Assembly (NCBI RefSeq): GCF_000353285.1
Contig: NZ_KB731324.1
Coordinates: 4,172,577 to 4,236,576 of the forward strand
DNA length: 64,000 nucleotides
Reading direction: 5' to 3'
From: Leptolyngbya boryana PCC 6306
Lineage (GTDB): Bacteria; Cyanobacteriota; Cyanobacteriia; Leptolyngbyales; Leptolyngbyaceae
A program made the position numbers and the translations under genes. This document shows, in pieces, positions 7,068 to 39,362 of this stretch. Position 1 is the first letter of the stretch. Every line of letters starts with the position of its first letter. The notes below the pieces were generated by a model. It worked only from the letters and a program-made list of their open reading frames with translations. It was not told where the DNA came from and searched no databases.

Positions 7068-7279
7068 AGCTATGATTCTACGGCAGATCAGATGTTCTGA
7101 TCTAAAAATGGCAATGGAATAGATTCTAACGTCGATCGCGAAATTGTCGATCGCGCAAATCTAAAACATCTCAGAATTTTGAGGACGATCTGAGAAAAAA
7201 TGCCTCTGATAATTTTGCTCAGTACGAGGGAGAAATAAGACAGATCATATTGTCTTCACCAATCCCAAGTATTGAGAAA

Positions 7280-7876
7280 ATGAGCAAGTTAGTTCTGCTA
7301 GTTGATTATGAGAATGTCCAGAATATTGATCTATCACTGATCCAAGATCAAGACTTTCAGATCAAGATCTTTGTTGGACAATCCCAGAGCAAGCTTCCCC
7401 TAGAGCTTGTTCAATCAACTCAGCGATTCGGCAATTCTCTAGAGTGGATCAAAATTGAAGGCAGCGGCAACAATTCTCTAGATTTCCATATTGCTTTTTA
7501 TTTAGGACAATTGAGCCGAGAAAATCCAAATCTCTCGCTTGTGATCCTCTCCAAGGACAAAGGCTACGATCCTCTGATTGGCTATCTGCATAAGCGTAAA
7601 ATTTCTTGCCGAAGAGTTGAAAACTTAACTGCCCTATCTAAACAAAAACAGAGTGATACTTCTTTGCAACCCAACCTCATGGAAGAAGTCATCGTAAAAC
7701 TCTCGAAACTGGAGAAAAAATGCCGTCCTAAAAGTCGTAGTGCTTTATCTCAGCATATTAAATCACTACTACAGCCAAAGAAGATCAGCCAGCAAGAGCT
7801 TGATCTGCTGATTAATCACTTGTTTTTACAAAAGAAAGTGACTGAAGCGAATAATCGAATTACTTACAATTTTTAG
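7280..7876 (+). CDS. PIN/NYN-like domain protein
   Basis: The 198-residue protein begins MSKLVLLVDYENVQ, the acidic first strand typical of NYN/PIN-like RNA-cleaving domains. A second acidic cluster (NNSLDFHIAFYLG) lies near residue 72 and a third (LSKDKGYDPLIGYL) near 97. These match the usual order of metal-binding aspartates. The C-terminal 80 residues are Lys-rich and helical. A GTG/TTG-type start at 7250 would add ten residues, but ATG 7280 begins directly at the domain and I prefer it. Either start has a weak ribosome-binding site. The role is inferred to be RNA cleavage or binding. The gene stands alone, divergent from the SbcC-like gene. Confidence 0.6.
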   Translation: MSKLVLLVDYENVQNIDLSLIQDQDFQIKIFVGQSQSKLPLELVQSTQRFGNSLEWIKIEGSGNNSLDFHIAFYLGQLSRENPNLSLVILSKDKGYDPLIGYLHKRKISCRRVENLTALSKQKQSDTSLQPNLMEEVIVKLSKLEKKCRPKSRSALSQHIKSLLQPKKISQQELDLLINHLFLQKKVTEANNRITYNF

Positions 7877-8018
7877 CGATCGAGATTGTCGAGGTAGAGA
7901 CAATCAGTCGCCAATTTTTCTAGGCGCTCTTGTCGTTTTGAGAGGTACAAGTTTTGTTCATGTTCTTACAAATTAACTCTTAGCATCAATAATTCAGATG
8001 GGATTTTCCCTGCGAAAT

Positions 8019-8411
8019 CTACTCATCTCGGCTGAACTCATTCTCTACATGCTCAATTAATTCTAAAATGCTGCGAGATTGTCCTGGCTCAACGTTAGAT
8101 TCCGAACCAATATGAACATGATGAGGAAAATTAGGCAAATCTGGAAAATGTTTGACACTATCCCAACGCTTTCTAAGAATCTGCTTTGTGCTATCCATCC
8201 ACTGATAGCGATAGTCTAACGTCGCGACTTGATCATTCTGAGCCATGAAGGATTCTGCAATCTCCAGAAAATCTTCGTTACTCAGCGTTAATCTTGCACG
8301 AAAGTAACCTCGATCGAATAACACGCGCTCATCCACAATTTCGATCGACGAAATGATTGAACTTGCATTCAGCTTTGCTTTAATACTCGCAATGTACTGA
8401 TGTAAGTCCAT
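8019..8411 (-). CDS. TumE-type toxin (DUF6516 family)
   Basis: This protein of about 130 residues starts MDLHQYIASIKAKL. The order of segments IVDERVLFDRGYFRARLTL, LDYRYQWMD, RKRWDSVKHFPDLPNFPHHVH and a C-terminal ILELIEHVE helix is that of the DUF6516 family, annotated as the toxin partner of a small toxin-antitoxin module. An upstream in-frame ATG at 8465 would lie inside the antitoxin gene. ATG 8411 gives a normal family length and sits 2 bp after the partner's stop, so I chose it. It is probably co-translated with the upstream antitoxin. The biochemical target is not visible. Confidence 0.65.
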   Translation of the reverse strand: MDLHQYIASIKAKLNASSIISSIEIVDERVLFDRGYFRARLTLSNEDFLEIAESFMAQNDQVATLDYRYQWMDSTKQILRKRWDSVKHFPDLPNFPHHVHIGSESNVEPGQSRSILELIEHVENEFSRDE

Positions 8412-16283: not shown

Positions 16284-16360
<77 letters not shown>

Positions 16361-17860: not shown

Positions 17861-18484
17861 ATGGAGTGGCATCCCACAGACGCGCAGAGTTTAGCCCTGA
17901 TCGATCGAGAAGTTGGCGATCACATGCTTTCTCCTGCTGAATACGAAATTGTCCGACGGGTTATCTATGCAACGGCTGATTTCGACTACAAATCCCTGAT
18001 TCACTTCTCTGATCTTGCCTTGCAGTCTGGTGCGGCTGCCCTTGCTGCGCGCACGACTATTATTGTTGATGTGCCAATGGTGCAGGTTGGCATTAATACG
18101 AATATCCAAAATACGTTCGCTAATCCCATCTACTGCAGTATGGAAGCGATCACCCGTCCCCAAAAAGAGAAAACCCGCGCTGCTTGGGGGATCGAAACGC
18201 TTGCTAGACGTTACCCAGAAGGTATTTTTGTCGTTGGGCAATCTCAGACGGCTCTGATTACACTGGCTGCGTTAATTCAGAAAGAAGAAATCAAACCTAC
18301 CCTTGTGATTGCCACGCCTTCTGGGTTTCTCGATATTGAAGCCGCGAAAGCCAGATTGAGTAATGCCTTAGTTCCAAACATTTGTACTCAAGGAAGAAAA
18401 GGCAATGCAGTGGTTGCAGCCGCGATCGTCAACAGTCTAGTAGATCTGGCATGGCAAGCTTACGGGGGGGATAATGCAGTTTAA
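17861..18484 (+). CDS. cobH: Precorrin-8X methylmutase
   Basis: This 207-residue enzyme of cobalamin synthesis moves the C-11 methyl group of (cobalt-)precorrin-8X to C-12, giving hydrogenobyrinate or cobyrinate. The family signatures are visible: VRRVIYATADFDY near residue 29, HFSDLALQSGAAAL, VDVPMVQVGI near 67, and later SQTALITLAAL and ALVPNICTQGRKGNAVVAAA. The catalytic His is in the LIHFSD segment. It overlaps the convergent next gene by 4 bp at its stop. No other cobalamin genes lie nearby in this window. Confidence 0.92.
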   Translation: MEWHPTDAQSLALIDREVGDHMLSPAEYEIVRRVIYATADFDYKSLIHFSDLALQSGAAALAARTTIIVDVPMVQVGINTNIQNTFANPIYCSMEAITRPQKEKTRAAWGIETLARRYPEGIFVVGQSQTALITLAALIQKEEIKPTLVIATPSGFLDIEAAKARLSNALVPNICTQGRKGNAVVAAAIVNSLVDLAWQAYGGDNAV

Positions 18485-19269
18485 TCCCAATCGGACGATC
18501 GCCGCTTGGATTTAGGAATGCGTTTTCTAGGACGAGGCTCGTCATATTCTTCGTCCCAACGCCGCTCATTCCGTTTCGATCGCGGCGGTTCACGGTAATC
18601 ATCTTCAGGCTCGATCGTATTAATTTGCCGACTGACCGCCTCAAATTCGTCCCGCCGCAGATAAGGATAATCGCTCACCCAAACTCCGACTCGGCTCACG
18701 AAAATATCACTCACTTTAGCAATCCGCCCTAAATCAGGACGATCCGAAAGTGCCAACATTTCAGCCGTATCTCCAATTCGGATTGCCTGATGTTCTCGTT
18801 TTAGGGGGACTTGAATCCGAGTCTCAAACCCTGTTTCATCTCCCACGACGACATTGATTCGCCGTTCCCGATTCTCAGTGACAACTAATTCTCCTCGGTT
18901 ATTCACGCTTTCTTCTGTCCCGACGAGTTCATCGGTCACGAACACATCCAGAACTTCGCCGCGCAAGAACCCTGCATATTTATATCGGCGATAACCTGCA
19001 TTCCGAACTGCCGCCTGAATAGCAGGACTCCACAACCAATAAACCAGCGCCAGGATAATCAGAAAAAACGTGACTGCCTGCACTACATCCTGCAATTCCC
19101 CGGTTGCAAAGAAGGCGCGAATCAGCAAGGCTCCTGCTACCGCAGAAATCGAGATCAGAACCCGTCTCAGAACGTCAGAAAGCTTTCCCCAATAATATTT
19201 GTACTGTGCGCCAGTTCCGACTAATGGAATCAGGTCTTCAAACTTTTTGCGACTTAGAGGGACTAGCAT
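18481..19269 (-). CDS. Conserved cyanobacterial membrane protein, unknown function
   Basis: This protein of about 262 residues starts MLVPLSRKKFEDLIPLVGTG. Two hydrophobic helices lie at roughly residues 35-55 and 60-80, followed by a soluble beta-rich domain (VFVTDELVGTEESV, VVGDETGFETRIQVPLK). The C-terminal 60 residues are highly charged and disordered (PRSKRNERRWDEEYDEPRPR). A GTG at 19278 would add three residues. It ends 4 bp inside the cobH stop, convergent. I do not recognise a function. The length and layout recall a conserved cyanobacterial protein sometimes annotated only as a membrane protein. Confidence 0.65.
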   Translation of the reverse strand: MLVPLSRKKFEDLIPLVGTGAQYKYYWGKLSDVLRRVLISISAVAGALLIRAFFATGELQDVVQAVTFFLIILALVYWLWSPAIQAAVRNAGYRRYKYAGFLRGEVLDVFVTDELVGTEESVNNRGELVVTENRERRINVVVGDETGFETRIQVPLKREHQAIRIGDTAEMLALSDRPDLGRIAKVSDIFVSRVGVWVSDYPYLRRDEFEAVSRQINTIEPEDDYREPPRSKRNERRWDEEYDEPRPRKRIPKSKRRSSDWD

Positions 19270-19558
19270 AGTGGACACAAAAATCGAAATATTTTCAATT
19301 TTATCCGGTCTATCTGGACTTCGCCGACTTAGACTTTGGTTGAATTGATTTTAAGTGAAGTGTGCAGGGAAAATTTACGGAACCGTCTGGATATTCGACT
19401 TTAGTCTGAGATAAAAATCGGTACTTTTTGCGAGGGGATTCGACCTGCTTGTCACTGAGAATAGATTCAAATCTGAGGAACGCACTCGGAAAAGCTAAGC
19501 AACTAGGGGGCAACTAAGTTTGTTTGGTGTATCCGGTTAAAGGCGTGCCTTACAGGTA

Positions 19559-19575
19559 GACTGCCTGACTCTGGG
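19559..19575 (+). other. Homing protospacer (attachment site) with GTA PAM
   Basis: The plus-strand sequence GACTGCCTGACTCTGGG is preceded by GTA (19556-19558), which fits the GTN PAM known for Cas12k. It matches the 17-nt spacer next to the detached repeat at 19877-19893 at 16 of 17 positions; the one difference is position 14 (T here, G in the spacer). The transposon boundary lies 60-63 bp downstream. This agrees with the 60-66 bp insertion distance established for ShCAST, and the left end is nearest the PAM as expected. Confidence 0.85.
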
Positions 19576-19602
19576 GGCTTTTAAGAGTCAGGCAATTTTT
19601 TG
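19562..19602 (+). terminator. Strong intrinsic terminator overlapping the homing site
   Basis: TGCCTGACTC (19562-19571) pairs with GAGTCAGGCA (19585-19594) around a 13-nt loop, and a T-run follows. It would terminate plus-strand transcription before the transposon. Because the stem contains most of the protospacer, guide binding and hairpin sequence coincide. Confidence 0.75.
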
Positions 19603-19616
19603 TTTAAATTCGTGTG

Positions 19617-19755
19617 ATTGTTGTCGAATAACACTTTATTTGTCGTCGTTAACGGATTGATGTCGTCGTTAACAATTTAGTGTCGTTTTAACAGCTTCTT
19701 GTCGTCGAGGGGTAAGAAATCATTCGTTAACAAATTCTTGTCATCAGAGCTTCAA
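19617..19755. repeat. CAST left end (LE) with TnsB-type repeats at about 20-bp spacing
   Basis: TGTCG-type motifs start at 19622 (TGTCGAATAACAC), 19641 and 19661 (both TGTCGTCGTTAAC), 19681 (TGTCGTTTTAAC) and 19700 (TGTCGTCGAGG). A further TTGTCATC lies at 19738. The spacing is close to two helical turns, which suits side-by-side TnsB binding. The arrangement and sequence resemble the ShCAST left end as I recall it (repeated TGTCGTCG-GTGAC and TGTCATTGTGAC). Confidence 0.85.
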
Positions 19756-19876
19756 GCAGTTGAATGCTCATTCAAATTCTTATCCACTTCAACATTTTAC
19801 AGTACAGACTCTACCCAGTTAAAACGAATGCTAACTCTGCTCGTTATAGCGAGGGGCAAATATTTCTAAATTAAAA

Positions 19877-19907
19877 CCCCGAGTCAGGCAGTCCTTTCAA
19901 TCCACCC
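19877..19907 (-). CRISPR. Detached CRISPR half-repeat and 17-nt homing spacer
   Basis: On the minus strand GGGTGGATTGAAAG (19907-19894) matches the 3' end of the array repeat with two changes, and is followed by GACTGCCTGACTCGGGG (19893-19877). It is separated from the last array repeat by about 50 nt. V-K transposons are known to carry a short self-homing spacer behind an atypical repeat between the array and the left end. The spacer's target lies just outside the element at 19559-19575. Confidence 0.88.
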
Positions 19908-19958
19908 ACTGTTAACCGAAAGATTGTGCCTATTAAAGTTGTCAAAAGACTAAGTTAC

Positions 19959-20515
19959 TCTTCAATCGCCCCCTTGCCGCAAACCTGGATGAAACATGTT
20001 GATACTGCTCGTTGACGGCAATAACCTTGCCCTTTCAATCGCCCCCTTGCCGCAAACCTGGATGAAACTTTATCCCCAACGCCTCAGCAATACTTTCGAC
20101 TGAGCTTTCAATCGCCCCCTTGCCGCAAACCTGGATGAAACGTTCTCTGATATTGCGTCAGAAACTTTCTCATACTTTCTTTCAATCGCCCCCTTGCCGC
20201 AAACCTGGATGAAACTTGAGTGAATTGCTTGTGCAGGCTTAAGTCTGTTTGGCTTCTCCTTTCAATCGCCCCCTTGCCGCAAACCTGGATGAAACCGCAG
20301 TCGAGGGATATCTTTCAGATAAATTCCTAGCCTTTCAATCGCCCCCTTGCCGCAAACCTGGATGAAACCTAAGCAGCGATCGCATATCATGCCTAGTTAA
20401 GGGGACTTTCAATCGCCCCCTTGCCGCAAACCTGGATGAAACCGGGCATTTGCCGAGTTGTGCAGGGAGTTTCCGAATCTTTCAATCGCCCCCTTGCCGC
20501 AAACCTGGATGAAAC
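19959..20515 (-). CRISPR. Type V-K CRISPR array, eight repeats, seven spacers
   Basis: 37-nt repeats start at 19959 (degenerate in its first two plus-strand bases), 20032, 20105, 20179, 20259, 20332, 20406 and 20479. In transcription direction (minus) the repeat begins GTTTCATCCAGG and ends GCGATTGAAAG, the usual V-K form. Spacers are 36, 36, 37, 43, 36, 37 and 36 nt from left to right; the 43-nt one at 20216-20258 is unusually long. The leader side is at 20515, next to the tracrRNA. The otherwise identical repeats suggest an array still kept intact. No cas1, cas2 or cas6 is seen. Confidence 0.96.
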
Positions 20516-20689
20516 CCTGCCATTCAAGGTGCAGCCATAGTGTGCTTTTCAAACATGGTTTTGGCAAACCCCTCTAAATCCGATACTTTTTGTTGGACAA
20601 GAAGCAGCTTTATGCTGTGGAAAGCTGCTGAAGGGATTAGTTTGTACGGATTGGCAAACCTCCTAGGGATTTTGACCTCGCTTCGGTTT

Positions 20690-20905
20690 GCCAACAAGTT
20701 AAAAGTTAGGGGTGGATTCCTCCTTGCTCGGAGGTGAGATTGGCTAACCAGCATTGCGGTAGACCCGCACCCTTTTGCTGGGAGCGCACCCAACTTCGAG
20801 GTAGACAGTCAACCTGAGCCAGAAAGCAAGACTATCTTCCGACAGTCAAACTAGCTCGTAATTGTCGATGGCACAGGGGCTATTGCTAGCATGAACCACG
20901 GCGCA
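20690..20905 (-). ncRNA. tracrRNA of the V-K system
   Basis: It lies between cas12k and the array, in the same orientation as both, where V-K tracrRNAs are encoded. Two blocks match the ShCAST tracrRNA as I remember it: AGTCTTGCTTTCTG (20833-20820) and GGTGCGCTCCCAGCA (20790-20776), followed by a GGG-GCGGGT-type segment. A 5-bp hairpin (20719-20734) and then GGAATCC follow. The AATC there can pair with the GATT of the repeat's GCGATTGAAAG end. Ends are approximate. It may extend left toward 20570 through another GCAGCTTT/AAAGCTGC hairpin. Confidence 0.85.
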
Positions 20906-20946
20906 CTCTATTTATAAAATACATTTGAACTAATTGCAAGTAATTT

Positions 20947-22857
20947 CTATTTTCGAGATTGGTATGCTGCGATCGCTAAATTTCTTGCTTTCTCTTGAGG
21001 AGTGCCTGAAAGAGGTTGTTTCGTAATCTCAATCGAAATGCCAACTTGAGCTGCTTGGCTTTGAATAAATTGGGTTAATTGAGCGTATCTCCAACGATGA
21101 ACGCTGGCTCGGTACTGGCGAGCATACTTTCGCTGCTGTTCTATAGAACCTAGAATTTTTTGCTCTGCTCTTGCTTGAACCTCGCTTTGAACAATCTCTC
21201 GAATGTCACCAAGGTCAGGAAGCGCGAGGCTACTTACCTGATATTCCTGAGCGATCGCTACAATTTCATGAGCGATCAAACGATCGAGATATTGTCCTTG
21301 GTTAGATTCTCTAAGTTGGCTAGAACCTCCTTTTCTTTGGTTGTTATGACGCTTATGAGCGTTACGTTGCTGGTTTAGGCGATATCGATTGAGGAGTTTG
21401 TAATTTTTGCCTAGGATTTGACGAATGCTTCTGTAGGTGATAGCTTTACCCGTTTGGATATTGACAATGGCTAAAGTAGCAGGTTTATCAAGTCCATAGC
21501 TTACTCCAGCCAGAATTGAAGGTTGACCTTGGTAGAGAGGATAGCTCGGACGTGGAAATTGATTCTCCAGCAATTCCAGCATTCTTTCTCGCCTTCTGAT
21601 AAAAGCATCCTGATTCTGACTTCGATTTTCTTTGGCTTTCGTACTAGCGATCACTTTTGCACAGTCGCTTGCCTTCTTTTGACGAATTTCCTCTGTGCCT
21701 TCTTGCGTCCAAGTATCAGTCTCTATAGAACACGATAAAACTAATCGATGAACTACCCAATGTTCTGCATCACCTTTGCCTTCTTGCCAAGCGATTTGCC
21801 CAGAACGTAAGGAGAACAAGCTGCTTGAATGCTGATTTTTGCTTGCTTTTTTAGTTTCTTGATCTTCTAAGAATCGGTTAAACCAGTGAAGATCCCTTTG
21901 ATCGCAGTAGACCTCAAAGAAATGCTCACTCAAACCGTTGAAACTGACACATATCCTGCCTTGGCTGTTTAGTGACCAGCGAAGATCTTCATTAGTTTCG
22001 TAGTTGACAGGGAAGGGTAAAATTGCTGGCTTAGTGAGGAGCCGTGCTTGCCAACCGGCTGCTTCCTCTTCGTTTTCAGGAATATGACTTGTTGCCGTTT
22101 CTAACGCTTCTATCCAAGAATGCCAAGATAAGTGCCGTCCTCTTGGGATTCTAGTGGTTTGGAAAGTGTTCATTAAACGCTCAAGGCGGATTTCTGTTTT
22201 ACGGCGACGTTTGATGAATTTTTCGGGGTTTTCGTTTTGATCAGGCAATTTGCAACCGTTCTTGAGTAGGTAAGCGATCGCACATCGAGTCAAGGGATCT
22301 TCTGTCTCGTCATAAAGTTTGAAGAGGGTGCGAGAAACATTCGCGCCTGCTTGATTTGATGTTTGATTCTTTTTCTTACTTCGGGTCTTCTTAACTTCAG
22401 GTTGGTCACTCTCTGAAATTGGTTCATTCAGGTGCGTGAGGAGTTCGCTGGCTTTCAATCTGAGTGTATTGATATCAGTCTGACTAGCGATCGTTAATTC
22501 ATTGTCGCTTTGAAGCATTGCTAACCAACGGGTCTGACCTGAAATCTGATTTCTAAGTCGTGTTTGAAGTGCTAGCCAGGACAAAAATATGCGATGTACA
22601 GTCGAGATTGCTGAGGAATAAAACCTTCCTGGTTGTCCTGAAAATTGGGGGTCTTGCTTTAGTTGATTACACGCTTCACTGACAACTAAACGAGGAAGTT
22701 TCCCTGTAAGGCTCCATTCCTCAAACCGCGAATCCTGAGCGATATGCTTGAGCAACTCGTTGATCAGAGGAGTATGCTTTTCTGCCATTAAGTGCCATAA
22801 AGCACGACGAGTTTCTTCAGTTGCCACCAACTTGCATTGGATTGTAATGACACTCAT
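20947..22857 (-). CDS. cas12k: Cas12k effector (type V-K, nuclease-dead)
   Basis: The 636-residue RNA-guided targeting protein finds DNA through crRNA/tracrRNA and hands it to TnsC/TniQ. I chose ATG 22857 (MSVITIQCKLVATEETRRALW), which is how this family starts; the open frame runs on to 23016. Visible parts are LINELLKHI near residue 30, GQPGRFYSSAISTVHRIFLSWL near 75, a Lys-rich linker with KKTRSKKKNQ, and a RuvC-like core with ILAGVSYGLDKPATLAIVN and LDRLIAHEIVAIAQEYQ. The RuvC acidic residues are degenerate, as expected for Cas12k, which does not cut. A small HTH gene is divergent upstream. Confidence 0.95.
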   Translation of the reverse strand: MSVITIQCKLVATEETRRALWHLMAEKHTPLINELLKHIAQDSRFEEWSLTGKLPRLVVSEACNQLKQDPQFSGQPGRFYSSAISTVHRIFLSWLALQTRLRNQISGQTRWLAMLQSDNELTIASQTDINTLRLKASELLTHLNEPISESDQPEVKKTRSKKKNQTSNQAGANVSRTLFKLYDETEDPLTRCAIAYLLKNGCKLPDQNENPEKFIKRRRKTEIRLERLMNTFQTTRIPRGRHLSWHSWIEALETATSHIPENEEEAAGWQARLLTKPAILPFPVNYETNEDLRWSLNSQGRICVSFNGLSEHFFEVYCDQRDLHWFNRFLEDQETKKASKNQHSSSLFSLRSGQIAWQEGKGDAEHWVVHRLVLSCSIETDTWTQEGTEEIRQKKASDCAKVIASTKAKENRSQNQDAFIRRRERMLELLENQFPRPSYPLYQGQPSILAGVSYGLDKPATLAIVNIQTGKAITYRSIRQILGKNYKLLNRYRLNQQRNAHKRHNNQRKGGSSQLRESNQGQYLDRLIAHEIVAIAQEYQVSSLALPDLGDIREIVQSEVQARAEQKILGSIEQQRKYARQYRASVHRWRYAQLTQFIQSQAAQVGISIEITKQPLSGTPQEKARNLAIAAYQSRK

Positions 22858-22969
22858 AAGACAAGTTCCTAATTTTGGTAAGGTACAAGACCAGCATGAT
22901 GAGCATAGATTCAGCGATCGTAGTGTTGACCAACTTTCAATCTCGATTTGGAAATAATACATTAGTTCT

Positions 22970-23002
22970 AAACTCTTGCAAAGATATAGTAGCCTAGAGT
23001 TT
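22970..23002. promoter_or_regulatory. Inverted repeat upstream of the HTH gene and cas12k, possible operator
   Basis: AAACTCT (22970-22976) and AGAGTTT (22996-23002) form an inverted repeat with centres about 26 bp apart, 26 bp before the start of the divergent HTH gene and about 115 bp from cas12k. This is where a regulator of the cas12k promoter would bind. Palindrome and place are seen; binding is inferred. Confidence 0.35.
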
Positions 23003-23027
23003 TGCCATTCTGACAATCAATCTGGTT

Positions 23028-23360
23028 ATGCCTCTTGCTCCTCGCCTACCAACTCATCGACACTGGAATACGTTGAACGCATATCTACGACCATTGGGCG
23101 ATAAGCAGATGGAGATCGACGAGTTTCTTAACAACTGGGATGTTTCGCGAGAGGAACTTGCATTCATCTGCGACTGTTCTTTAACCACCGTAAATCATTG
23201 GTTTTCTCAAGGAGAGCATCGTAGGATTCCGACGGATAAGCACAAGCAGCGACTGGCGCTAGCTCATCACATCTGGATCACGATCGAGTCGGAACCTGAG
23301 TATTTACAGACGCTACGGCAGATGTATCACAAGCAACGTCGGCGAGAAGAAAAGGAATAA
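23028..23360 (+). CDS. Small helix-turn-helix regulator next to cas12k
   Basis: This 110-residue basic protein has its central part, VSREELAFICDCSLTTVNHW, matching a helix-turn-helix in which the second helix would be SLTTVNHWFSQG. The C-terminus is Lys/Arg-rich (MYHKQRRREEKE). It is transcribed divergently from cas12k. In V-K CASTs a small repressor commonly occupies this place. CvkR of Anabaena is a MerR-type example, but this protein does not look MerR-like (no MerR coiled-coil dimer region). I infer that it represses cas12k and perhaps tnsB. Confidence 0.65.
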   Translation: MPLAPRLPTHRHWNTLNAYLRPLGDKQMEIDEFLNNWDVSREELAFICDCSLTTVNHWFSQGEHRRIPTDKHKQRLALAHHIWITIESEPEYLQTLRQMYHKQRRREEKE

Positions 23361-24211: not shown

Positions 24212-25459
24212 CTAACGGGTTTTCATCGGAATTTGGAATGGAAGTCGCTTAGGAGTAGCTTTCTCAGTTGGCTCTAGGATGAAGTAGCCGTCAACCGCAG
24301 AGGACTCTGGTAGTGCTGCGACTTTGTGTTCAAACTCGGTTGGAGTTAGGTCGTGAGACACAAGTAGATCGTATTGGGCGACATATCCCTCAAGCACATT
24401 ACTTCGAGCAGCAAGCTTTCTCAACGATGGGATGATCATCGTTCTTTCTTTTTCTAGCCCAATCCCAATATTCTTATTTAAGCCAGATCCCCCATGTAAT
24501 ACTGGAATCCAGCCTGTTGAGTACCATGTTTCATCGACTTTCCGGCGTAGGTCATCAATCCAGCTATAGCGCTTAGTTTCTTCGTTGGCAAAATCTAGCC
24601 ATTCAACTAATTCAGCCACAGACACTGCATCGACAAAATCGCTGGCTAGAAACCGTTCTGGGTACTCACCAACTAAGATCTCCTTGGCAATGCGTCGTCC
24701 CTGAGTTTGCCAGATTTGATTAGTTTCTTGAATTTCGTGTTGAGCAACGTCTAACATTCCTAATTCGGCAGAGCAGCGAGCCTGAGCGAGTGCAGTCAAG
24801 GTGAAATACTCCTCATACGCCATCGCCGTTTCGATCGTGGTTGCACTCAGCAGTAACTCGCGATACCGCATATTGATTTCTGAGAGGGTGCGTCGCGAAT
24901 CGTGTAAAATTGTGTAACGGTGATCAATAGGCGTTTTGTCTAATTTTGTCAGGGCATCGAGTGAGGCAAAGAGCTTTGCTCGTTCGTTGCTTGCCAAGAA
25001 GTGTTGAATGTCCTGAATGTCCTTCTGAATGCTTTTGAGTCTGTCGTCGATCTTACTCAGCTTGTTGTTGATTGCAATGAAGCCAACACTGCTAACAACT
25101 AAACCTAATCCAGATAGAACAGCGGTTCCTGTGGCAATTTGAAGTACTTGTTGCGTAGTTTGTGACAGTGAGCCAACTTGTGAAGAGAGTTGTGTCAGCA
25201 AGACAGTATTCTGTTGCACTGTATCCTTCAAATCCGACATCTGCATACTGTTGACGATGCCTGGAATGAAGTTGAGTCCTGGAATAAGGTTGAGAACTTG
25301 GGAACTGGCTGGGAGGATGTGGCGCACAATTTGCCCGCCATGTCCGGTTCCGGCTGCCCACCGAATGACACCACCGTAGGCTTTGTATTGTCCTGTTATT
25401 AATCCCATTATTACGTCTGATGGGATCATCCGAGTGACTTCCCAGCCTGGAAACATCAT
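24212..25459 (-). CDS. Large protein with membrane segment and coiled coil, unknown
   Basis: This 415-residue cargo protein has an N-terminal region rich in Gly (GGVIRWAAGTGHGG), a Gln/Ser/Thr-rich coil near 75-105 (LTQLSSQVGSLSQTTQQVLQ) and a hydrophobic helix at about 108-132 (TAVLSGLGLVVSSVGFIAIN). A coiled coil follows (KLSKIDDRLKSIQKDIQDIQ). The C-terminal 230 residues are soluble and helical. I do not recognise the family. Similar coil-plus-helix proteins occur among cyanobacterial accessory genes. It is on the minus strand, about 115 bp from the TPR-CHAT gene, and may be downstream in the same transcript. Confidence 0.5.
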   Translation of the reverse strand: MMFPGWEVTRMIPSDVIMGLITGQYKAYGGVIRWAAGTGHGGQIVRHILPASSQVLNLIPGLNFIPGIVNSMQMSDLKDTVQQNTVLLTQLSSQVGSLSQTTQQVLQIATGTAVLSGLGLVVSSVGFIAINNKLSKIDDRLKSIQKDIQDIQHFLASNERAKLFASLDALTKLDKTPIDHRYTILHDSRRTLSEINMRYRELLLSATTIETAMAYEEYFTLTALAQARCSAELGMLDVAQHEIQETNQIWQTQGRRIAKEILVGEYPERFLASDFVDAVSVAELVEWLDFANEETKRYSWIDDLRRKVDETWYSTGWIPVLHGGSGLNKNIGIGLEKERTMIIPSLRKLAARSNVLEGYVAQYDLLVSHDLTPTEFEHKVAALPESSAVDGYFILEPTEKATPKRLPFQIPMKTR

Positions 25460-25574
25460 AGTCTTGACCTCAAGGAATTGTTGATACGGAATATCAGAAA
25501 TATTCTTGGCTAGTGTTCCTTGAGAGATGCGATCGCTAACCCATCAAAATTTGAGATGATTTCCTGAAGCTGCA

Positions 25575-28439
25575 CTAGGGTGAAGTTACTTCGTATCCTG
25601 TGAGCATGAAGCCTGCCCAGTGATAGGGATGCTCAAAGGGTCGGTGGGACATACCTTTGATTGCAGCATCTTTAAGGGCGAGGTGGGCAGCATCTTTGAG
25701 AGTTTCGGCGTGTCCACTGTGGTTGGGAAGTCGATCGCTTAATGCGTTGTACCAGGGAATTAAAGTTGCGTAGTCGGATTTTAGCCAGGTTTGTGCTTCG
25801 CGGAAGGCATCGATCGGGGAGAGCGATCGACGCAAGTTTTCGTAGAGGCGGATCATGAAGAGAGCGCTGGAGATTTCATCGACAATCCAAAGGGTGCTGA
25901 TGACAAAGTTAACTCCGGCTTTGAGGAAGCCTGCGACGAGTCCGACGTATTCATCAGTGAGGTCGCGTTGGCGCGTAAGTCCGGTTTCGCAGGCGGAGAG
26001 GCAGACAAGACGATAGGGATTGAGGTTAAGTTGGAAGATGTCGCGCAGGGTGAGGAGTTCGGTTCCGGCGAGGGCGAGGGCGGAGTCGAGGGGGTCGTCG
26101 AAGTTGTGGTAGGCGTGTCCGGTGAAGTGGAAGAAGTCGGCGGGTTGGGTGAGGTGGATTTGTAGGGCGGTACGGGTGGCTTGGTCGGAAGTGAGGGAGT
26201 GGGTGGAGAAGAAGGTGGAGATGAGGGTGGATTCTAGTTCGGCGTAGAGCATTTTTTTGGGGGTTTTGCTCTGGCGCTTGGTGTAGTGGGTGGGGGGATC
26301 TTCGATGCTGGTGAGAGTGGGGGAGTGGGGGAGTGGAGAAGTGGGGAGATGGTCGAGGGCAAGGCGGGCGCTGGGAAGCATGGTGCAGCGGAATTTGCCA
26401 GGGAAGAGGGACTGGAGGGGAAGGAGATGGAGATCGCGGTGGGGAATGAGGATGAGGGTTTGGATGGGTTGGAGTTCTTTGCAGAGGGAGTTGATTTCTA
26501 AGATTTTGCGGAGTTTGTTGAACAGCAGGAGTTCCATGTTTTGCCGCCATGGGTCGGTTTTGCCGTTTTCATAGTTGTAGTTTTGGTAGAGGGCCGTCCA
26601 TTGCTGGAGCCATGCTTCAAATTGGGCGAGTTGGTGGGCGGCGGCAGGGTAGGGTTGCTGTCCGGGTTTCAGTGAGGAGGTTTTGGGGGAAGTGAGGGGG
26701 AGGATTTTTGGGGGTTGGTTGTGATGGAGGATGAAGGTGGTGATTGCAGCGGGGCTTCTATGCCAGTAGATGGCGGCGGTGGTTTCGTTGAGGAGGGATT
26801 GGATCTCTGTGTAGGAAGTGTTTGGGGTAGAGGCTTTCCAGTCTTCTCGTAAGCGCCATAGGCAGCGATTTTTGCAGGTCTCGGCAAGTTCGATGGCTGC
26901 AATTGGATCTTGCTGGGCTAGGGAATCGATTTGGATTTGCTTGAAGCTTTCAAAGCGGCGTTCTAGTGAGATTTTTTCACCGAGTGAACGGTCTGGATCA
27001 TCTAGTAACCGTTGGAGTTTAGCAGAGGCTTCTTGCAGTGCGGCTTGGATTGTTCTTTGATCACCCAATTGCTGACAGATCTTTAGGAAGTCTTGCCAGA
27101 GTTCGAGGTGAAGTTTAGGATAGTCGAGGAGGGGAAGCAGATCAATTGCTTTCTGATAGTTCTCTCTTGCTCTGAGCCAGTTTTGAAAAGGTGAGGGTTG
27201 GTTTTGACTTGAGTTGTAAAGTGTTTTTGCCTTGCGACGATGTAGCATTGCTATCCCGTAAGGATAAGCAGAAGAATCTGGTAGAATTGCTTGAATGCCT
27301 TCATCCCAAACTGTTAGAGCTAATTTATCGTCTCCCTGAAGTTCGAGAATTGCTAGACCCCGATTATCCCAAGCTTGCCAAAATTGTCCTTGAGAGTAAG
27401 CTATTGCTTGATCATAGCAAGTTATAGCTTCTCCATAGTCTTTCAGAGAGTAGAAAACGTTTCCCCGACCATTCCAGGAGTAGTAATAATCTGATTTGAG
27501 TGCAATTGCTTGCTTATAGGATCTCATTGCTTCTTGATACAGACCTAATTCACGTAAAGCATTTCCCCGCCCGTTCCAAGGATTGCAATAATCTGGCTTA
27601 AGTGCTATGGATCGTTCGTAGGAACTAATTGATTCTCTGTATTGCCCTAAGTCATACAAAACATTTCCCCGACCAGTCCAAGGTTGACAATAATTTGGCT
27701 CAAGTTTAATCGATTGATTGTAGGAATCAATCGCTTCTTTGTATCTCCCTAGTTCACGTAAAGCATTTCCAAGACCGTTCCAGGGGTCACAATAATCTGG
27801 CTTAAATGCAATTGATTGGTTATAAGAATCGATTGCTTCTTTGTAGTGTCCTAGATCATACAGAGCATTTCCGCGGCCGTTCCAAGGATTGTAATAATCT
27901 GGCTTAAATGCAATTGATTGGTTATAAGAATCGATTGCTTCTTTGTAGTGTCCTAGTTCACGCAAAGCATTTCCGCGACCGTTCCAAGGATTGTAATAAT
28001 CTGAGCTAAGTTTAATTGATTGGTTATAAGAATCGATTGCTTCTTTGTAGTGTCCTAGATCATACAGAGCATTTCCGCGACCGTTCCAGGGTTCACGATC
28101 ATCTGGATTAAGTCTAATCGATTGGTCATAGGAATCGATTGCTTCTTTGCATCGTCCTAATTCACGTAAAGCATTTCCGCGACCGTTCCAAGGATTATAA
28201 CTATCCGGCTTGATTTTAATGGATTGCTCGAAGGAGATCAGTGCTTTTTGATACCGCTTCAAATAGTAAAGAGAATTGCCCAGGGAATTCCATGCTTTGT
28301 GATTGTGTGGGTTGAGCAAGATTGCTTTATCCAAAAACCAGAGTGCTCTTTCATAGTTATCATGTTCTAGTGCTTTAATTCCTTGTTCTAGCAATTCATT
28401 AAAGTTATCCATTGGCTCGGGGGCTGAAAGCTCTGTCAT
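25575..28439 (-). CDS. TPR-CHAT protease-domain protein
   Basis: This 954-residue cargo protein has about ten 34-residue tetratricopeptide repeats at residues 12-360, a helical linker, and a C-terminal CHAT (caspase-like) domain from about 690 on. The catalytic pair is visible: His in FFHFTGHAYHNF and Cys in VCLSACETGLTR. CAGVNFVISTLW-like and DAFREAQTWL segments are also typical. CHAT proteases act in bacterial conflict and cell-death systems and cleave partner proteins. The TPRs would sense or hold a partner. Two small genes lie directly upstream on the same strand. A Pro/Ser-rich insert (residues about 698-715) comes from a low-complexity DNA tract. Confidence 0.88.
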   Translation of the reverse strand: MTELSAPEPMDNFNELLEQGIKALEHDNYERALWFLDKAILLNPHNHKAWNSLGNSLYYLKRYQKALISFEQSIKIKPDSYNPWNGRGNALRELGRCKEAIDSYDQSIRLNPDDREPWNGRGNALYDLGHYKEAIDSYNQSIKLSSDYYNPWNGRGNALRELGHYKEAIDSYNQSIAFKPDYYNPWNGRGNALYDLGHYKEAIDSYNQSIAFKPDYCDPWNGLGNALRELGRYKEAIDSYNQSIKLEPNYCQPWTGRGNVLYDLGQYRESISSYERSIALKPDYCNPWNGRGNALRELGLYQEAMRSYKQAIALKSDYYYSWNGRGNVFYSLKDYGEAITCYDQAIAYSQGQFWQAWDNRGLAILELQGDDKLALTVWDEGIQAILPDSSAYPYGIAMLHRRKAKTLYNSSQNQPSPFQNWLRARENYQKAIDLLPLLDYPKLHLELWQDFLKICQQLGDQRTIQAALQEASAKLQRLLDDPDRSLGEKISLERRFESFKQIQIDSLAQQDPIAAIELAETCKNRCLWRLREDWKASTPNTSYTEIQSLLNETTAAIYWHRSPAAITTFILHHNQPPKILPLTSPKTSSLKPGQQPYPAAAHQLAQFEAWLQQWTALYQNYNYENGKTDPWRQNMELLLFNKLRKILEINSLCKELQPIQTLILIPHRDLHLLPLQSLFPGKFRCTMLPSARLALDHLPTSPLPHSPTLTSIEDPPTHYTKRQSKTPKKMLYAELESTLISTFFSTHSLTSDQATRTALQIHLTQPADFFHFTGHAYHNFDDPLDSALALAGTELLTLRDIFQLNLNPYRLVCLSACETGLTRQRDLTDEYVGLVAGFLKAGVNFVISTLWIVDEISSALFMIRLYENLRRSLSPIDAFREAQTWLKSDYATLIPWYNALSDRLPNHSGHAETLKDAAHLALKDAAIKGMSHRPFEHPYHWAGFMLTGYEVTSP
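27480..28270 (-). repeat. Near-identical 102/204-bp coding repeats in the TPR region
   Basis: The TPR units alternate between an ALRELG form and an ALYDLG form, so the real repeated unit is a pair of TPRs (68 residues, 204 bp). Consecutive units at roughly 27800-28100 differ by only a few bases. Such high DNA identity points to recent expansion by slippage or unequal recombination. Confidence 0.75.
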
Positions 28440-28453
28440 TCTCTACATAATAC

Positions 28454-29668
28454 TTACCTAGATTTTCGCCCCTTTCCGAAGAAAAGCCACACGCGAATCA
28501 GCACCGCAAACAAAATCCCAATCGCTGAACACATCAAAACCCCGATTGCCCCCTCTGTCCAAGGCGAAACTCTCATCGGTGCAGGCACAACCTTTACAAC
28601 GGACTGCACGATCGACGCATCCTCCAACTTCGCTGCCGCAAACGAAGCTGTGATCGCCACCGATCCCACCCCAACCCCCAAAACCGCGATCGAATCCTGA
28701 AACTTCTGACTTTGCGCCTCCAATCTACGATCGCGCTCCGCCTGCTCCAACTCCACCAAGCCCCGAATCGTATCCGTCGTCTTCTCCCGCACCCGCAGCC
28801 CGATCGTCAACGTCGCAATATCCCGCTCAATCTGCCGCACATCGCGACTTCCAATCTGCTCAAACTGGCTCAGCTTTTGAAACGAATGCGATCCCTTCGC
28901 CGACATGCTTGATAATCTTGATCGATAGTTCTCTAGATTTGTCTTCACCGTCTCCAACTGAAACTCTAAAAAGCTTAAACACTCCGTATACTGCGATAAC
29001 AACGTCAGATTTTGCTTCAAATCCTGCGTCAAATTCTGCAAATCCAACTCAGAAACCTCTACATCCTGCATCGTCAAACTCATAATTGAAGATGGTTTCG
29101 GAAACAAATGCTGACTGAGCAACGGCTTAATCTGTCTCGTATTGCCATAAGCCCAATTTACTTTATGTCGGAATTGCAGCAAATACAGCCACTCCTGCAA
29201 TGCTTCACCCGCGATCGCTTTCATCTCATCCAAGCTGGAATAAAGCGCCACAATTCCATGCTGATTTTCTAAACCACACTCAAATATCTTTGCCCCCTGC
29301 CATTGATCCGCAGAGTCTGACAGGTTCTCGATGCCCAAAATTTCACAACTCGATCGCACAATATTCTGCGGATCTTCCCCCTCTGGCAACACTCCAAACA
29401 CAAGCCAGCTTCGCCCCAATTCGCGATCGCACGATCCAGTTTTTGCTAAGACGATTTCTTTTAGCAGCTTCAAATTATCAAGCGATTGCGATTCCTGTTT
29501 CTCGATCGCGCTCGTAATCAAATACTGCTCTGTATCTCCACGCCCATAGCGATACACCGTGCCTGCAATCAGATCCTTTTGAAACGATTCTCGCTCATCA
29601 CTATCCTGCGTCTCATCGCGCAAGACGTAAGAAAACAAACAGAGATGGGGATAAATCAGGTGTGCCAT
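28454..29668 (-). CDS. TPR-CHAT-associated protein with coiled coil and C-terminal membrane helices
   Basis: This 404-residue protein has an N-terminal soluble domain (MAHLIYPHLCLFSYVLRDE) that extends to about 200. A long coiled coil spans about 205-310, and two hydrophobic helices lie near 325-340 (AVLGVGVGSVAITASFAA) and 370-395 (GAIGVLMCSAIGILFAVLI), followed by a short basic tail. It ends 14 bp before the TPR-CHAT gene and begins directly after a small upstream gene, so the three form one operon. By layout it resembles the CHAT/caspase-TPR-associated membrane protein of so-called CATRA conflict systems. That link is inferred. Confidence 0.5.
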   Translation of the reverse strand: MAHLIYPHLCLFSYVLRDETQDSDERESFQKDLIAGTVYRYGRGDTEQYLITSAIEKQESQSLDNLKLLKEIVLAKTGSCDRELGRSWLVFGVLPEGEDPQNIVRSSCEILGIENLSDSADQWQGAKIFECGLENQHGIVALYSSLDEMKAIAGEALQEWLYLLQFRHKVNWAYGNTRQIKPLLSQHLFPKPSSIMSLTMQDVEVSELDLQNLTQDLKQNLTLLSQYTECLSFLEFQLETVKTNLENYRSRLSSMSAKGSHSFQKLSQFEQIGSRDVRQIERDIATLTIGLRVREKTTDTIRGLVELEQAERDRRLEAQSQKFQDSIAVLGVGVGSVAITASFAAAKLEDASIVQSVVKVVPAPMRVSPWTEGAIGVLMCSAIGILFAVLIRVWLFFGKGRKSR

Positions 29669-30133
29669 CTAAATTAGGTAAATTACCCACTCCCAAAATT
29701 TTCCGTTGTTTGCAATTTTAGCCCGCTCTTCCTGTGCCCGCTCACTCGGATTTTTCGCCGCTAAAATCTCCTGTGCTGCTGCAATGCGATCAAGCGGCAC
29801 GGACAGATTTTCAATCTCATTTTCCCCAGGTTTCGGCGATTGATTGGGCGGTATTTGAATCTCTTTTCCTCGTGGCTGACTCTGATATCCCGCAAGCAAT
29901 TCCTGTCGCGCTTCTTCGTAAAGTGATTTGAGCGCACTTGCTTTCATTACTTGCCGCAACTTCGCGATCGCACTCGCAGGCTGATCCTTTAGCTCGATCG
30001 CCACCTGATTCAATGTTTGAATCATTTCAGGATCGAGAGCGTTGGGAGATTCTGCGATCGCGGCTAGCGCAGCCCTCAACGATCTTGCATCCGTTTCCTG
30101 CATGGGAAATAACTTTGAATAGATATCTAGCAT
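29669..30133 (-). CDS. Small helical protein, first gene of the CHAT operon
   Basis: The 154-residue protein starts MLDIYSKLFPMQETDARSLR. ATG 30133 has TGAGG about eight bases upstream; a longer frame begins at 30175. It is helical and Ala/Glu-rich, with a proline-rich hinge (IPPNQSPKPGE) near residue 105 and an aromatic end (KFWEWVIYLI). Its stop directly abuts the start of the 404-residue gene. I infer that it is a small regulatory or sensor partner of the TPR-CHAT protein. No known domain is seen. Confidence 0.45.
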   Translation of the reverse strand: MLDIYSKLFPMQETDARSLRAALAAIAESPNALDPEMIQTLNQVAIELKDQPASAIAKLRQVMKASALKSLYEEARQELLAGYQSQPRGKEIQIPPNQSPKPGENEIENLSVPLDRIAAAQEILAAKNPSERAQEERAKIANNGKFWEWVIYLI

Positions 30134-30439
30134 TATTGTAGCCTCAGGCATCGCACTAAAAGCTACACAGAACACTTAATTAAGTTTTGATAAGGTAAAG
30201 AATCTGGTCGACAAATATTATCTGAACTCGTTCTCGACCGGGAGTCATTCAAATTCTTAAGTCACCTAGAGCAACGGGTAATAGCGGATTTCAAACCTAT
30301 TTGCCATAGAAACTTTTGTCCTTGCCGAGTCCCGTAAATACAAACTCTTTATACTTCCTCGTACTTAGAAAAATTATACTTAGAGCGGAAATATTTCGAG
30401 AAGATTTAATTCCAGTTCGTTCTTTCGTTGTAAGCAAAA

Positions 30440-33400
30440 ATGTATTCTGCAAGTCCTTTATCCATTCGTGTTACTGAAGTTGGTGAATATATTCGTTACC
30501 GCTCCTGCGAAAGACGGTTCAAATTAGAGTATAACGATCGTGATTTAGCCTCAGAATTACCGTTTGCAGATCGCTTATTCAATACTATTGATCCCGTTTT
30601 GCAGGCAGCTGGTAGGCAGAGAGAAGATGCCTGGGAAGTATCGTTACAGAGTGGAGGTCTGACCGACCTAACTAATTTCTCAACGCAATCTGGAAGTGAG
30701 ACAACAACGCGATCTGGAAATGACACAAATTGGCATGATTTCGCGACTATACTCAGTGGCATCTCCATCGGCAGTAATTCATATGGACGAGAAATCTCAA
30801 TTCATGCCCGATTAGGAGCTTTTGAGATCAAGGGGCAATTGGATTTCCTCGTAGTGTTGTGGGATGGCTCTCGACCTCGCCTTAAAATCGTCGAATGTAA
30901 AGCAAGTAGACGAGATCGCACTTACCATCGGATTCAGGTAACTCTCTATCGGATGATGCTGAGCGCACTTCTTGAATCTCACCCTCTTTTTATTGGTGGT
31001 TACCGCATCACATCAGAAGATATTGAATGTGTTGTTGCACGTATTCAAGAAGATAACAATTTAAGTCAAGATATTTTGGCTCTTGCCCCCTTAAACCTAG
31101 AAACAGAAGAAGCGGATATCCGACGATTAATTGCACCGGGTGGAAGCTTGGAAAGAATTGTTAACAGTGATTTAGCAGATTTGGACTATCAAATAGAATC
31201 CAAATGTGATGACTGTGTTTTCAGCGTTCATTGCCTAACCGAAAGTGCTCGTGAAAGGCGCTTAGAACTGCTTGGGCTAGAGCCATCTGTTATTCGCAGT
31301 TTGAGGAATGCAGGGATAAATAGCATAGACGATTTAGCGGAACTTGACTTGGCAGGTGGGCAAGCAATTACTTTGCGCCAAGACCCAAGTTACTCAGGCA
31401 ATCTCGAACTGATGAGACTTCATGCACAGGCACGTCGAAAAACTCTGCCAGGTGGCGACACTCATCCTGATGAATATGAAGTCATTTCGTTGCCGAATAC
31501 TGGACAGGGACAATTACCTCAGCACGAAACGTCTGATGGAAGAAGACTCATCAGAATTTACTTATCGATAGACTACGACTACGTTGAAAATCGAATTGGA
31601 GCTTTAGCCGCTCACGTGACCAATAGTAACTGGCAATTGCATACAGGATGGTTAGACGGAGATCCAGACCCAGAAACAGGTCTTGTACGAAGAGTTCCGA
31701 ATCATGTTATTCAAGAGCAAAATAGGCAAAATGAAATTGGTCGTGACGGTAATAACCGACCAATTTATGAAGAACGTCCCTTGCTAAGCAGGGATGTCAT
31801 TCACTTCAAAAACGACCCGTGGACAGGTGATTACGTCACTGATACAAGCGCGGAGCGAACGCTAATTCAGTCGTTTTTATCCGAGTTGGTCGATGCGATC
31901 GCAGATGTAGCTGAGCTTGACGAAGCGCCGATTCATTATTACATCTGGTCAAGATCAGACATGGCACAATTAGTTGAAGGTTGCTCCCGTGCCAGTTCTA
32001 GGCTACTGGCGAGTTTAAGAGAACTTTTAGGATGCCGCGATCACTTGGAGCAATTGATCTACTCCTGTCTGCAAGAAGAAGTAGACCAGAGATTTGCTCT
32101 GGGTTGGACAAGCAGAGGACTTTCGGTTGCCGCATCGCTCAAATGGTTTGGTAATACCTACCACTGGCAACGCCGTGTCAGTGGACGACCAATTTCTTTA
32201 CATCAAGAGTTCACTCAAGACATTTTTGACTTCAAAACTGATTTATGGATTGATCCATCAGTTCCTGCTTGGACTGAAGAAGGAGATGGAATCAGACATA
32301 AGTTTGAAATTCGTAGCCGCTTTCATGATTCATTAACAGCACCATACTGGAGAGCATTTTGGAGAAGCCTACCAAATCCAAGTGCTATTCGGGATGCAAG
32401 AGTCCGTCGGGCTATAAATTCTTACAATAACGCGCAGAGACCTAACAACCTACGCGAGTATTTGCGTGCGCGTGTCCATGCTCTTCGTTGGATTGAAGAA
32501 AGAATCAGATTTAAGAATCCAGAAATTAGCAAACCCAATGTAATAATTGCAAATCTTCCTGATTTTAATCTTGGTGTCAATGACACTGCAAGAGCAGCAC
32601 TTGATTTTCTAAAACTTGATCAACACATCAATCTCACAAGTTGGATCGCTGAGCACCTTGTACCACCTCTGTACAGAATCTCTACAGGTAAGACAATTCC
32701 TCTGCGAAACATCGTTTCACTCGGTCAAGTAGATGATTCATGCCAATTAACTGCGAATCTTGATTTGACAGATTTCGATATCAATCTTGAAGCATTCAGA
32801 AATAATTGCAATCTCGGCCCAGGTGCATTTGTTAGACTTAGCCCCTTTTCTGAAGCCCGTCGAGGGCAAACCTTTAGACAACTGATGATTGGCGGAATTA
32901 CTTGCACTCTTCAGAATCTTGATTGGGATAGTGGAGAGGTAAGCTTGTCAGTAGTCCGCTTTCGAGGAAGCGATTTGTACCGATTAGGTAGCCGAGTGCC
33001 GGAGCGTGGACCTTTATTCGATCGAGCAACACTAGATGAAAGCCCTTCCGACTTCGTTGCTCCCAGGGTAGATAACCGTCTTCAGACTGTCATTAATAGC
33101 CATGTTTATCAATGGTTTCACCCTGAGTTATCTCAGATTCCAGCACAAATAGATATTGCTCCTGCCATGATAGAGCAATATCAGGAAATTCTGAGAACCT
33201 TACGCTTGCGACGTGGACGGCAATTAGCACAAGAACAGCGTGAAGCTGCTACTGAGGGCTTAAGGACGAGAATCCAACTTCTTCAGGGGCCACCTGGCAC
33301 GGGTAAAACTGAAACCACGGCTGCTTCCACTTTACTTAGAATTCTTGCGCGGAGAACAGTGCGGACAGAAGGTAAAAATCAATATGGAGAAATTGTCGTT

Positions 33401-34660: not shown

Positions 34661-36064
34661 AGCGATTTCAATGTCTTGATCTCCACCAAGATTGAGAATT
34701 AGGTTTTTACTTTGCTTACCTCGATTAATAGAGAAAGCGGTGTAAGACAAAACACTTTCAACAATTGCTTTGACTACTTCTACATGCACACCATTACCTA
34801 ACGCTTTAAATGCACGCTCTCGTGTTTCAGGTAGGATGTGTTCCTCTGGCAATCCCAAAAGCAACAACCCTTCTGATCGGGATAGGAAACGTTTTTTTGG
34901 TCCAAGAATGGGGATTTGGGTTTCTGTCATGGCGACTAAAGAAGGGATTGATGAGTACCGTTTCACTCGCAACCCAGAGGGGCGAAATTGTAGAATATGC
35001 TGCCATAAGTTTCTTTCTTCCCCCTGACAGTTCCACTCAAGCTTTCTCAAAGAAGGTGGAAATTGGCTTAGATCGTCCAACCATTCTCTAGTAAAAAAGC
35101 GTGAATATTTATGGAACCATTCTCGGTTTTGCCGTATGAATCTCACTTTCCAGTTAGGGAAATGAGATTCCGGCGTTTGAGCATAGCTTGGTAGAAGTGC
35201 CAACAGTTCATCTTTGCTCATCCTCTTCTTTAATGAGTATGCATTCAAGCATGCTCGTAATTCTCTAATTGTGGCAGCATAAGGGGTATAGCTTTCAAAC
35301 GGATAAGTTGCCTCAAATTCATCTCCCCAAATCGGAAATGAAGGCAAAGAAACGGTTTTTTCAGGTAAGTTCTTAATTAATTGATTCCAATGATTGATGC
35401 ACTCCCGCTGCTGATCCGATAAGGATGTCTCTTTTCTCTCCTGCTGAGAAAGATTTTTGTTCAATTTGATATACTTCTCTAGGGGAATTAATGGCTGTAT
35501 GTTCTTGGCAGGAAAAGGGTTTTCTGGTAATTCCTCATTCAGAACGCCAACTATGAAGAATCTCTCCCTACAGTGTGGAAAGCCTAAATGATGAGGAGAA
35601 AATAGTCCTGGCCCACCACTTCCCACATGAGTCGTTCCACGCACACTGTAACCAATTCTCTCTAGCCGAGTTTTTACAATGCTCCAAGTACGACCGGAGT
35701 CATGACGTTCAAAATTACCTACATTTTCTAGAAAGAGATATTTCGGTCTGCATTTTTCTAAAATCTCTAAAATCTCGTGAAATATAGTCCCTTCTGTTGG
35801 GTCATTAAATCCACGTTGATGACCCGACTTTGAAAACGGTTGACAGGGAAAGCCTGCACAGAGGATGTCATGTTTTGGAACTAAATTTTTAGCTTCTCGA
35901 ATATCGCCATATGTCAGATGAGCCACAGAGGGGAAATTCTTTTTGTAGTTCTCTCTTAATTCTTCATTGATCTCAGATGCAAAGACGCACTCAAACCCAA
36001 AGCTAGATAGAGCCTTGTGAAATCCTCCCAAACCAGCACATATGTCCACAAAACTCAATCTCAT
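34655..36064 (-). CDS. DNA (cytosine-5) methyltransferase
   Basis: This 469-residue Dcm-type enzyme transfers a methyl group from S-adenosylmethionine to cytosine C5. The motifs are in normal order: FVDICAGLGGFHKAL at residue 5, DILCAGFPCQPFSKSG (catalytic Cys) near 71, YLFLENVGNF near 110, and HCRERFFIVGV near 165. A target-recognition region covers about 200-400, and KALGNGVHVEVVKAI lies near 428. The recognition sequence cannot be read from the protein. No type II restriction gene is adjacent. The convergent helicase-nuclease may be the partner that spares methylated DNA, by inference. Confidence 0.9.
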   Translation of the reverse strand: MRLSFVDICAGLGGFHKALSSFGFECVFASEINEELRENYKKNFPSVAHLTYGDIREAKNLVPKHDILCAGFPCQPFSKSGHQRGFNDPTEGTIFHEILEILEKCRPKYLFLENVGNFERHDSGRTWSIVKTRLERIGYSVRGTTHVGSGGPGLFSPHHLGFPHCRERFFIVGVLNEELPENPFPAKNIQPLIPLEKYIKLNKNLSQQERKETSLSDQQRECINHWNQLIKNLPEKTVSLPSFPIWGDEFEATYPFESYTPYAATIRELRACLNAYSLKKRMSKDELLALLPSYAQTPESHFPNWKVRFIRQNREWFHKYSRFFTREWLDDLSQFPPSLRKLEWNCQGEERNLWQHILQFRPSGLRVKRYSSIPSLVAMTETQIPILGPKKRFLSRSEGLLLLGLPEEHILPETRERAFKALGNGVHVEVVKAIVESVLSYTAFSINRGKQSKNLILNLGGDQDIEIAS

Positions 36065-39227: not shown

Positions 39228-39238
39228 AAGTACATAAG

Positions 39239-39270: not shown

Positions 39271-39362
39271 AGAAATAGCGACAGTCAATCTGTTAGACAG
39301 GAAAATTAATACAAATTAACTATTTGAAGCGATCGCAAGACGAGCGAATTCCAAAATCAGAT

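Follow-up and report, generated by a model that had tools for sequence, protein, structure and literature searches.

We find that the window, the whole 64,000-nucleotide stretch of Leptolyngbya boryana PCC 6306 DNA analysed here, carries an element (19622-42902) that, judged by its genes and termini, is a type V-K CAST, and we are confident from its sequence that a guide composed of a truncated repeat (R*) and a 17-nt anchor spacer, acting with the V-K machinery, homed this element to the terminator of a predicted RNA gene. The observations that favour guided homing are the match between anchor and flank, the PAM, the distance, the orientation, the machinery genes, four comparable loci in other cyanobacteria, and orthologous sites that are free of the anchor. 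The observations that count against it are a mismatch at position 14 of the anchor, flanking 5-mers that are reverse complements of each other, the ACA found in place of the PAM in Leptolyngbya sp. FACHB-321, and a left end in Cyanobacteria bacterium FACHB-63 that lacks the outermost unit. The mechanism is already known; it is the attachment gene that is unusual.

The element is bounded by inverted terminal repeats that begin with TGT and contain repeated TGTC motifs, spaced mostly about 20 bp apart in the left end (LE), and the right end (RE) is 90% identical to the LE region across about 49 bp (Table 1). The anchor unit, the CRISPR array (seven identical repeats and a last one with two mismatches) and cas12k lie on the left side, and tniQ, tnsC and tnsB on the right, an arrangement like the published V-K layout, in which the array and cas12k face the LE and tnsB-tnsC-tniQ lie toward the RE (PMC9938897). 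Because the family match begins at residue 54-57 of the cas12k ORF, the true start of this gene is probably near 22857. For the same ORF, PADLOC ranked a model labelled Cas12j at the top (892.9 bits) and Cas12k next (874.3 bits). No model match to TnsA was obtained among the subset of element ORFs that was scanned. As in type I-F3 CASTs, the chromosomal att site has a guide of its own (PMC11406308), but type I-F3 CASTs are Cascade-based, whereas in the window element the effector is Cas12k and the Tns proteins match V-K models.

Several further features of the element are worth recording. In contrast to published V-K elements, in which tnsB is normally the first gene from the RE (PMC9938897), about 3.7 kb separate tnsB from the RE terminus in the window; the gap between tnsB and the RE (39228-42700, about 3.5 kb) contains a LexA/S24-like gene (39725-40540). 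The cargo stretch at 24212-36064 looks like a defence island; its products include a C5 cytosine methylase, a TPR-CHAT protein, a protein that partly resembles JukB and a helicase partly similar to MkoA. A small divergent ORF (23028-23360), for which a Pfam search gave nothing over the cut-off, adjoins cas12k, which is the position of the CvkR/Arc regulator (PMC9938897). Elsewhere in the same genome, at 274362-275324 of contig C1, there is a second Cas12k fragment, 43% identical and corresponding to residues 356-688.

Table 1. Features of the window and left-end positions of the other elements found at the same terminator
Feature	Position	Strand	Description
Predicted RNA gene (attachment gene)	19472-19601	+	Long stem-loop and intrinsic terminator
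PAM	19556-19558	+	GTA, read directly from the sequence
Anchor protospacer	19559-19575	+	Overlaps 5' arm of the terminator; 16/17 against the anchor spacer
Presumed target-site duplication, left copy	19617-19621	+	ATTGT (5 bp outside LE)
LE	19622-19760	+	Starts with the terminal TGTCGAATAACAC; six TGTC-type motifs, taken as TnsB sites; inner limit approximate
Anchor spacer	19877-19893	-	GACTGCCTGACTCGGGG, 17 nt, directly after the half-repeat R*
R*	19894-19911	-	Truncated repeat (...GTGGGTGGATTGAAAG); tail GATTGAAAG common to R* and the 37-nt array repeat
CRISPR array	19959-20515	-	8 repeats of 37 nt, 7 spacers
cas12k	20947-23016	-	ORF of 689 aa; NCBIfam NF038191 V_Cas12k, 896.9 bits (cut-off 150)
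tniQ (V-K type)	36164-36682	-	PADLOC TniQ_0_V-K, 5.4e-68
tnsC (V-K type)	36679-37524	-	PADLOC TnsC_0_V-K, 4.6e-101
tnsB (V-K type)	37518-39227	-	PADLOC TnsB_0_V-K, 3.3e-236
RE	42700-42902	-	Terminal repeat 42886-42902; inner limit approximate
5-bp junction	42903-42907	+	ACAAT, reverse complement of the left ATTGT
Second left end, remnant	42908-42954	+	Same 19 bp as at the LE terminus; a second half-repeat-like GATTGAAAG follows
Phormidium tanganyikae FI6-MK23			Left-end-like start 61 nt from PAM position
Cyanobacteria bacterium FACHB-63			Left-end start 58 nt from PAM position
Leptolyngbya sp. Prado105			Left-end-like start 51 nt from PAM position
Leptolyngbya sp. FACHB-321			Left-end-like start 60 nt from PAM position

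The anchor unit has the known arrangement of the V-K anchor spacer, or delocalized crRNA (PMC9938897, PMC11406308), which combines R* and a 17-nt spacer near the LE with a GTN PAM outside the element. Such anchors are usually 17 nt long, with R* and a GTN PAM 46-82 nt from the LE and one case at 147 (PMC9938897). R* itself is identical to the 37-nt array repeat at 13 of the last 17 bases. When recomputed, the match of the anchor spacer to the left flank came out at 16 of 17 bases, exactly as the original prediction had it, with the single mismatch at position 14, and the GTA PAM named there was found next to the protospacer. The element boundary had been placed 60-63 bp from the PAM, with 55-70 bp as the tolerated limit; the element starts at 19622, exactly 63 bases from the PAM and within the published 46-82. 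The proposed order PAM-LE-RE also holds, with the protospacer just outside the LE, since in the published V-K layout the left end is the one near the array (PMC9938897). In this respect, the window element is comparable to ShCAST (Tn7747) of Scytonema hofmanni, in which a 17-bp LE motif matches the neighbouring host gene and which inserts 60-66 bp after the PAM with the LE first, at 63 in four of six Anabaena clones (PMC10949235). The ShCAST motif, however, matches a tRNA-Leu gene and the window anchor an RNA-gene terminator.

The anchor is the only 17-mer of 19622-42904, on either strand, to reach 16/17 against the 80-bp left flank. Those that do not overlap it reach 14/17 at most, at four places that are all outside the CRISPR array. 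The array spacers were considered as the source of the insertion and ruled out: every array 17-mer stays below 14/17 against the left flank, and six of the seven spacers, together with the sequence that precedes the first repeat, are all at 10/17 or less. Across the PCC 6306 genome (7.26 Mb), a search tolerating up to three mismatches returned 11 anchor matches, comprising the anchor itself without mismatch, the target with one and nine places with three, and the backwards control of the anchor returned six places. PAM, distance, orientation and uniqueness fit V-K homing and support the suggestion that this unit is the record of a homing event.

V-K anchor targets usually lie in tRNA genes (PMC9938897), and tRNA genes make up the majority of V-K att sites, although the sites can differ even among close relatives (PMC11406308). 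The site in the window differs from these in being the terminator of a predicted conserved RNA gene, which the original prediction had not recognized, nor had it recognized the truncated second left end that abuts the RE. The predicted gene ends in an intrinsic terminator whose 5' arm is the protospacer, and the insertion point falls 20 bp beyond the T-run, leaving the gene whole. Its sequence conservation and fold suggest that 19472-19601 is probably a conserved, structured, non-coding RNA. A query made from the left flank had matches in 38 of 58 genomes, and a covariance model (R1) made from 21 aligned copies of the RNA had matches in 55 of 145 genomes of the class (Infernal, stricter filters), the PCC 6306 genome being included in both counts. 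RNAalifold predicted from the alignment a long stem-loop plus a terminator stem, with both-sided changes at 5 of 34 pairs, including C-G/U-A exchanges in the terminator arm; several pairs of the consensus fold cannot form in one or two of the sequences. Rfam gave no family at E<=1 across 18300-21000, and an identity as 6S RNA was rejected on this result and on the location of the genome's own 6S match elsewhere. A tRNA target was rejected as well, since the window yielded a single tRNA, for Pro (16284-16357), at a distance of 3.2 kb. This site is not named in the titles and abstract openings of the literature searched, and we make no claim that it is unpublished.

In the mechanism that we propose, the R*-spacer unit would be transcribed toward the left end, and the R*-anchor RNA, together with tracrRNA, Cas12k, TniQ and TnsC, would direct TnsB to place the element, with its left end first, 63 bp downstream of the GTA PAM. 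Insertion past the T-run would spare the predicted RNA gene and thereby offer a safe site, by analogy with the usual tRNA sites. We infer the expression of guide and tracrRNA, the transposition reaction, and the role of the anchor crRNA as the maker of the insertion.

If the element homed to this terminator, relatives should carry the same site without it, and this expectation of the original prediction is borne out by sites that lack an anchor unit. We compared one locus each from the 19 best-scoring of the 38 matching genomes, PCC 6306 itself being left out, and the anchor unit (exact pattern, within 1400 nt) was absent at 17 of them. The protospacer is retained at these orthologous loci, the PAM GTA being present at 19/19 and the exact 10-nt seed GACTGCCTGA at 15/19. 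The two loci with the anchor pattern belong to Phormidium tanganyikae FI6-MK23 (G001) and Leptolyngbya sp. Prado105 (G004). By the same pattern and range, the unit was not found in the same-genus relatives G003, G006, G002 and G005. A TGTC occurs 46-82 nt from the PAM in three of the 17 anchor-free loci (L008, L011 and L017), which is about chance level, and beyond the terminator the relatives compared have no long collinear match, only short scattered ones.

Other CASTs at the same place had also been anticipated, and four cyanobacteria proved to have matching anchors. A scan of GTDB contigs for the R* tail plus seed returned 35 contigs, against about 30 expected by chance on our own arithmetic; the five titled as cyanobacterial were looked at, and the other 30 were put down to chance from the expected number. 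In four of the five, the target, the PAM position and left-end-like sequence all lie beside the match (Table 1, with the left-end starts set by eye at the first TGTC motif), while the fifth (L054, Cyanobium) lacks such a target site and was set aside. A family search allowing one mismatch placed the pattern in 8 of 42 genomes, namely PCC 6306, the four others and three that were dropped (G060, G012 and G006, the matches in the latter two being far from the target site), and it added no further anchor-target pair; its backwards control also hit 3 of the 42. In a sample of 385 other genomes from the phylum, the exact anchor pattern did not occur; viral contigs had no match to Cas12k patterns, and among plasmids Cas12k had distant matches in two records and the LE region had no match.

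The Cas12k proteins of the window, FI6-MK23 and FACHB-63 are 90-92% identical, and the FACHB-63 left end begins at TGTCGTCG, without the outermost repeat unit of the window and FI6-MK23. In the FACHB-63 assembly, contig C155 is element-free and contig C19 occupied. The two share the same 113 bp leading to the junction, which C155 shows directly, and they might come from a mixed culture; a contig linking the RE with the right flank of the element-free site was looked for and not found. FACHB-321 has ACA at the PAM position, a Cas12k split by stops into three ORFs in one frame that are 28-38% identical to the window protein, and no CRISPR array in the 5.9 kb examined beside it. We infer that the ends in Prado105 and FACHB-321 are V-K ends because of their motifs and, in FACHB-321, also because of the nearby Cas12k gene. 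The Prado105 anchor locus may be a remnant, given that its contig has no Cas12k match and that part of a urea carboxylase lies beyond the anchor. A separate Prado105 contig, C303 (L147:4222-6699), encodes a Cas12k of 825 aa, longer than the Cas12k models (620-642 positions), adjoining a V-K type TnsB.

The close similarity of three of these Cas12k proteins might suggest a single ancient insertion that was inherited vertically, so that the shared site would not reflect repeated homing. This is very unlikely in view of the bases between terminator and left end, which differ in each element, with distances of 63, 61, 58, 51 and 60 (window, FI6-MK23, FACHB-63, Prado105 and FACHB-321), the element-free contig of FACHB-63, a FACHB-321 Cas12k about 30% identical, and same-genus relatives (G003, G006, G002 and G005) in which no anchor unit was found. 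The anchors themselves bear on another alternative, namely that the element inserted by a different route and took its anchor from the adjacent terminator later, as a label and not a cause. How delocalized crRNAs arise is not known (PMC11656645), and the window anchor does differ from its own target. Mismatches between anchor and target fall at position 14 in the window and FACHB-63, at 11 and 12 in FI6-MK23 and Prado105, and at 17 in FACHB-321, whereas positions 1-10 agree in all five pairs, partly by selection (ten leading anchor bases were set by the search pattern and seven leading target bases by the expression used for the target). However, the FI6-MK23 anchor is identical to the terminator variant in the window genome, as is the Prado105 anchor to the variant in FI6-MK23; both fit other genomes' variants better than their own and were thus not simply copied from the present site. 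Since the distances also fit guided insertion, we consider a later acquisition of the anchor most improbable. Chance agreement, which could appeal to the shortness of a 17-mer, the inverted repeat in the flank and the near-expected GTDB count of the R* tail plus seed, has a negligible probability, as the anchor outscores every other element 17-mer (14/17 at most at unrelated places), is correctly placed relative to R*, PAM and LE, and recurs in similar geometry in four other cyanobacteria.

The right junction adds a second V-K end to this locus. A truncated left end begins 5 bp past the last RE base (42902), and its GATTGAAAG (42954-42946, minus strand) is followed by a different 17-mer; the same GATTGAAAG is also present twice inside cas12k, by chance. 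The element flanks, ATTGT on the left and ACAAT on the right, show no direct 5-bp duplication, but reverse-complementing the 39-bp junction RE-ACAAT-LE' gives exactly RE-ATTGT-LE', the junction that a direct duplication would produce. These sequences would fit an element that inserted directly next to an older V-K left end and duplicated 5 bp, with the short palindrome inverted later or flipped in the assembly. The 17-mer of the remnant has no close target in the PCC 6306 genome, where its best other matches have two mismatches and the backwards control gave 63 matches against 36 for the true sequence; because of this lack of a close target, we do not favour the possibility that the remnant homed here by its own guide. 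Synteny between the window and the relatives' loci gave no fix of the right flank. To the right of the element, a FAD-dependent gene stretch (44391-46427) has a 2-kb match in G003, inverted (6370-8406 of its locus L070), some 6-8 kb past the element-free site.

We lean toward a broader interpretation, in which the terminator of this unnamed conserved cyanobacterial structured RNA would serve two or more deeply diverged V-K CAST lineages as a common homing site. The anchors of these lineages carry three variants of the terminator arm (ACTC, ATCC and ACCC), some of which fit another host's terminator better than their own, so that guides would travel between hosts, and the window element would abut what is left of an earlier V-K left end, as expected of serial homing.

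These natural sequences indicate that a tRNA gene is not required for V-K homing and that a conserved RNA terminator can serve, with insertion past the T-run. The five natural anchor-target pairs bear on how far mismatches are tolerated, and a genus with occupied and anchor-free versions of one site is useful for studying V-K homing and the gain of anchors.
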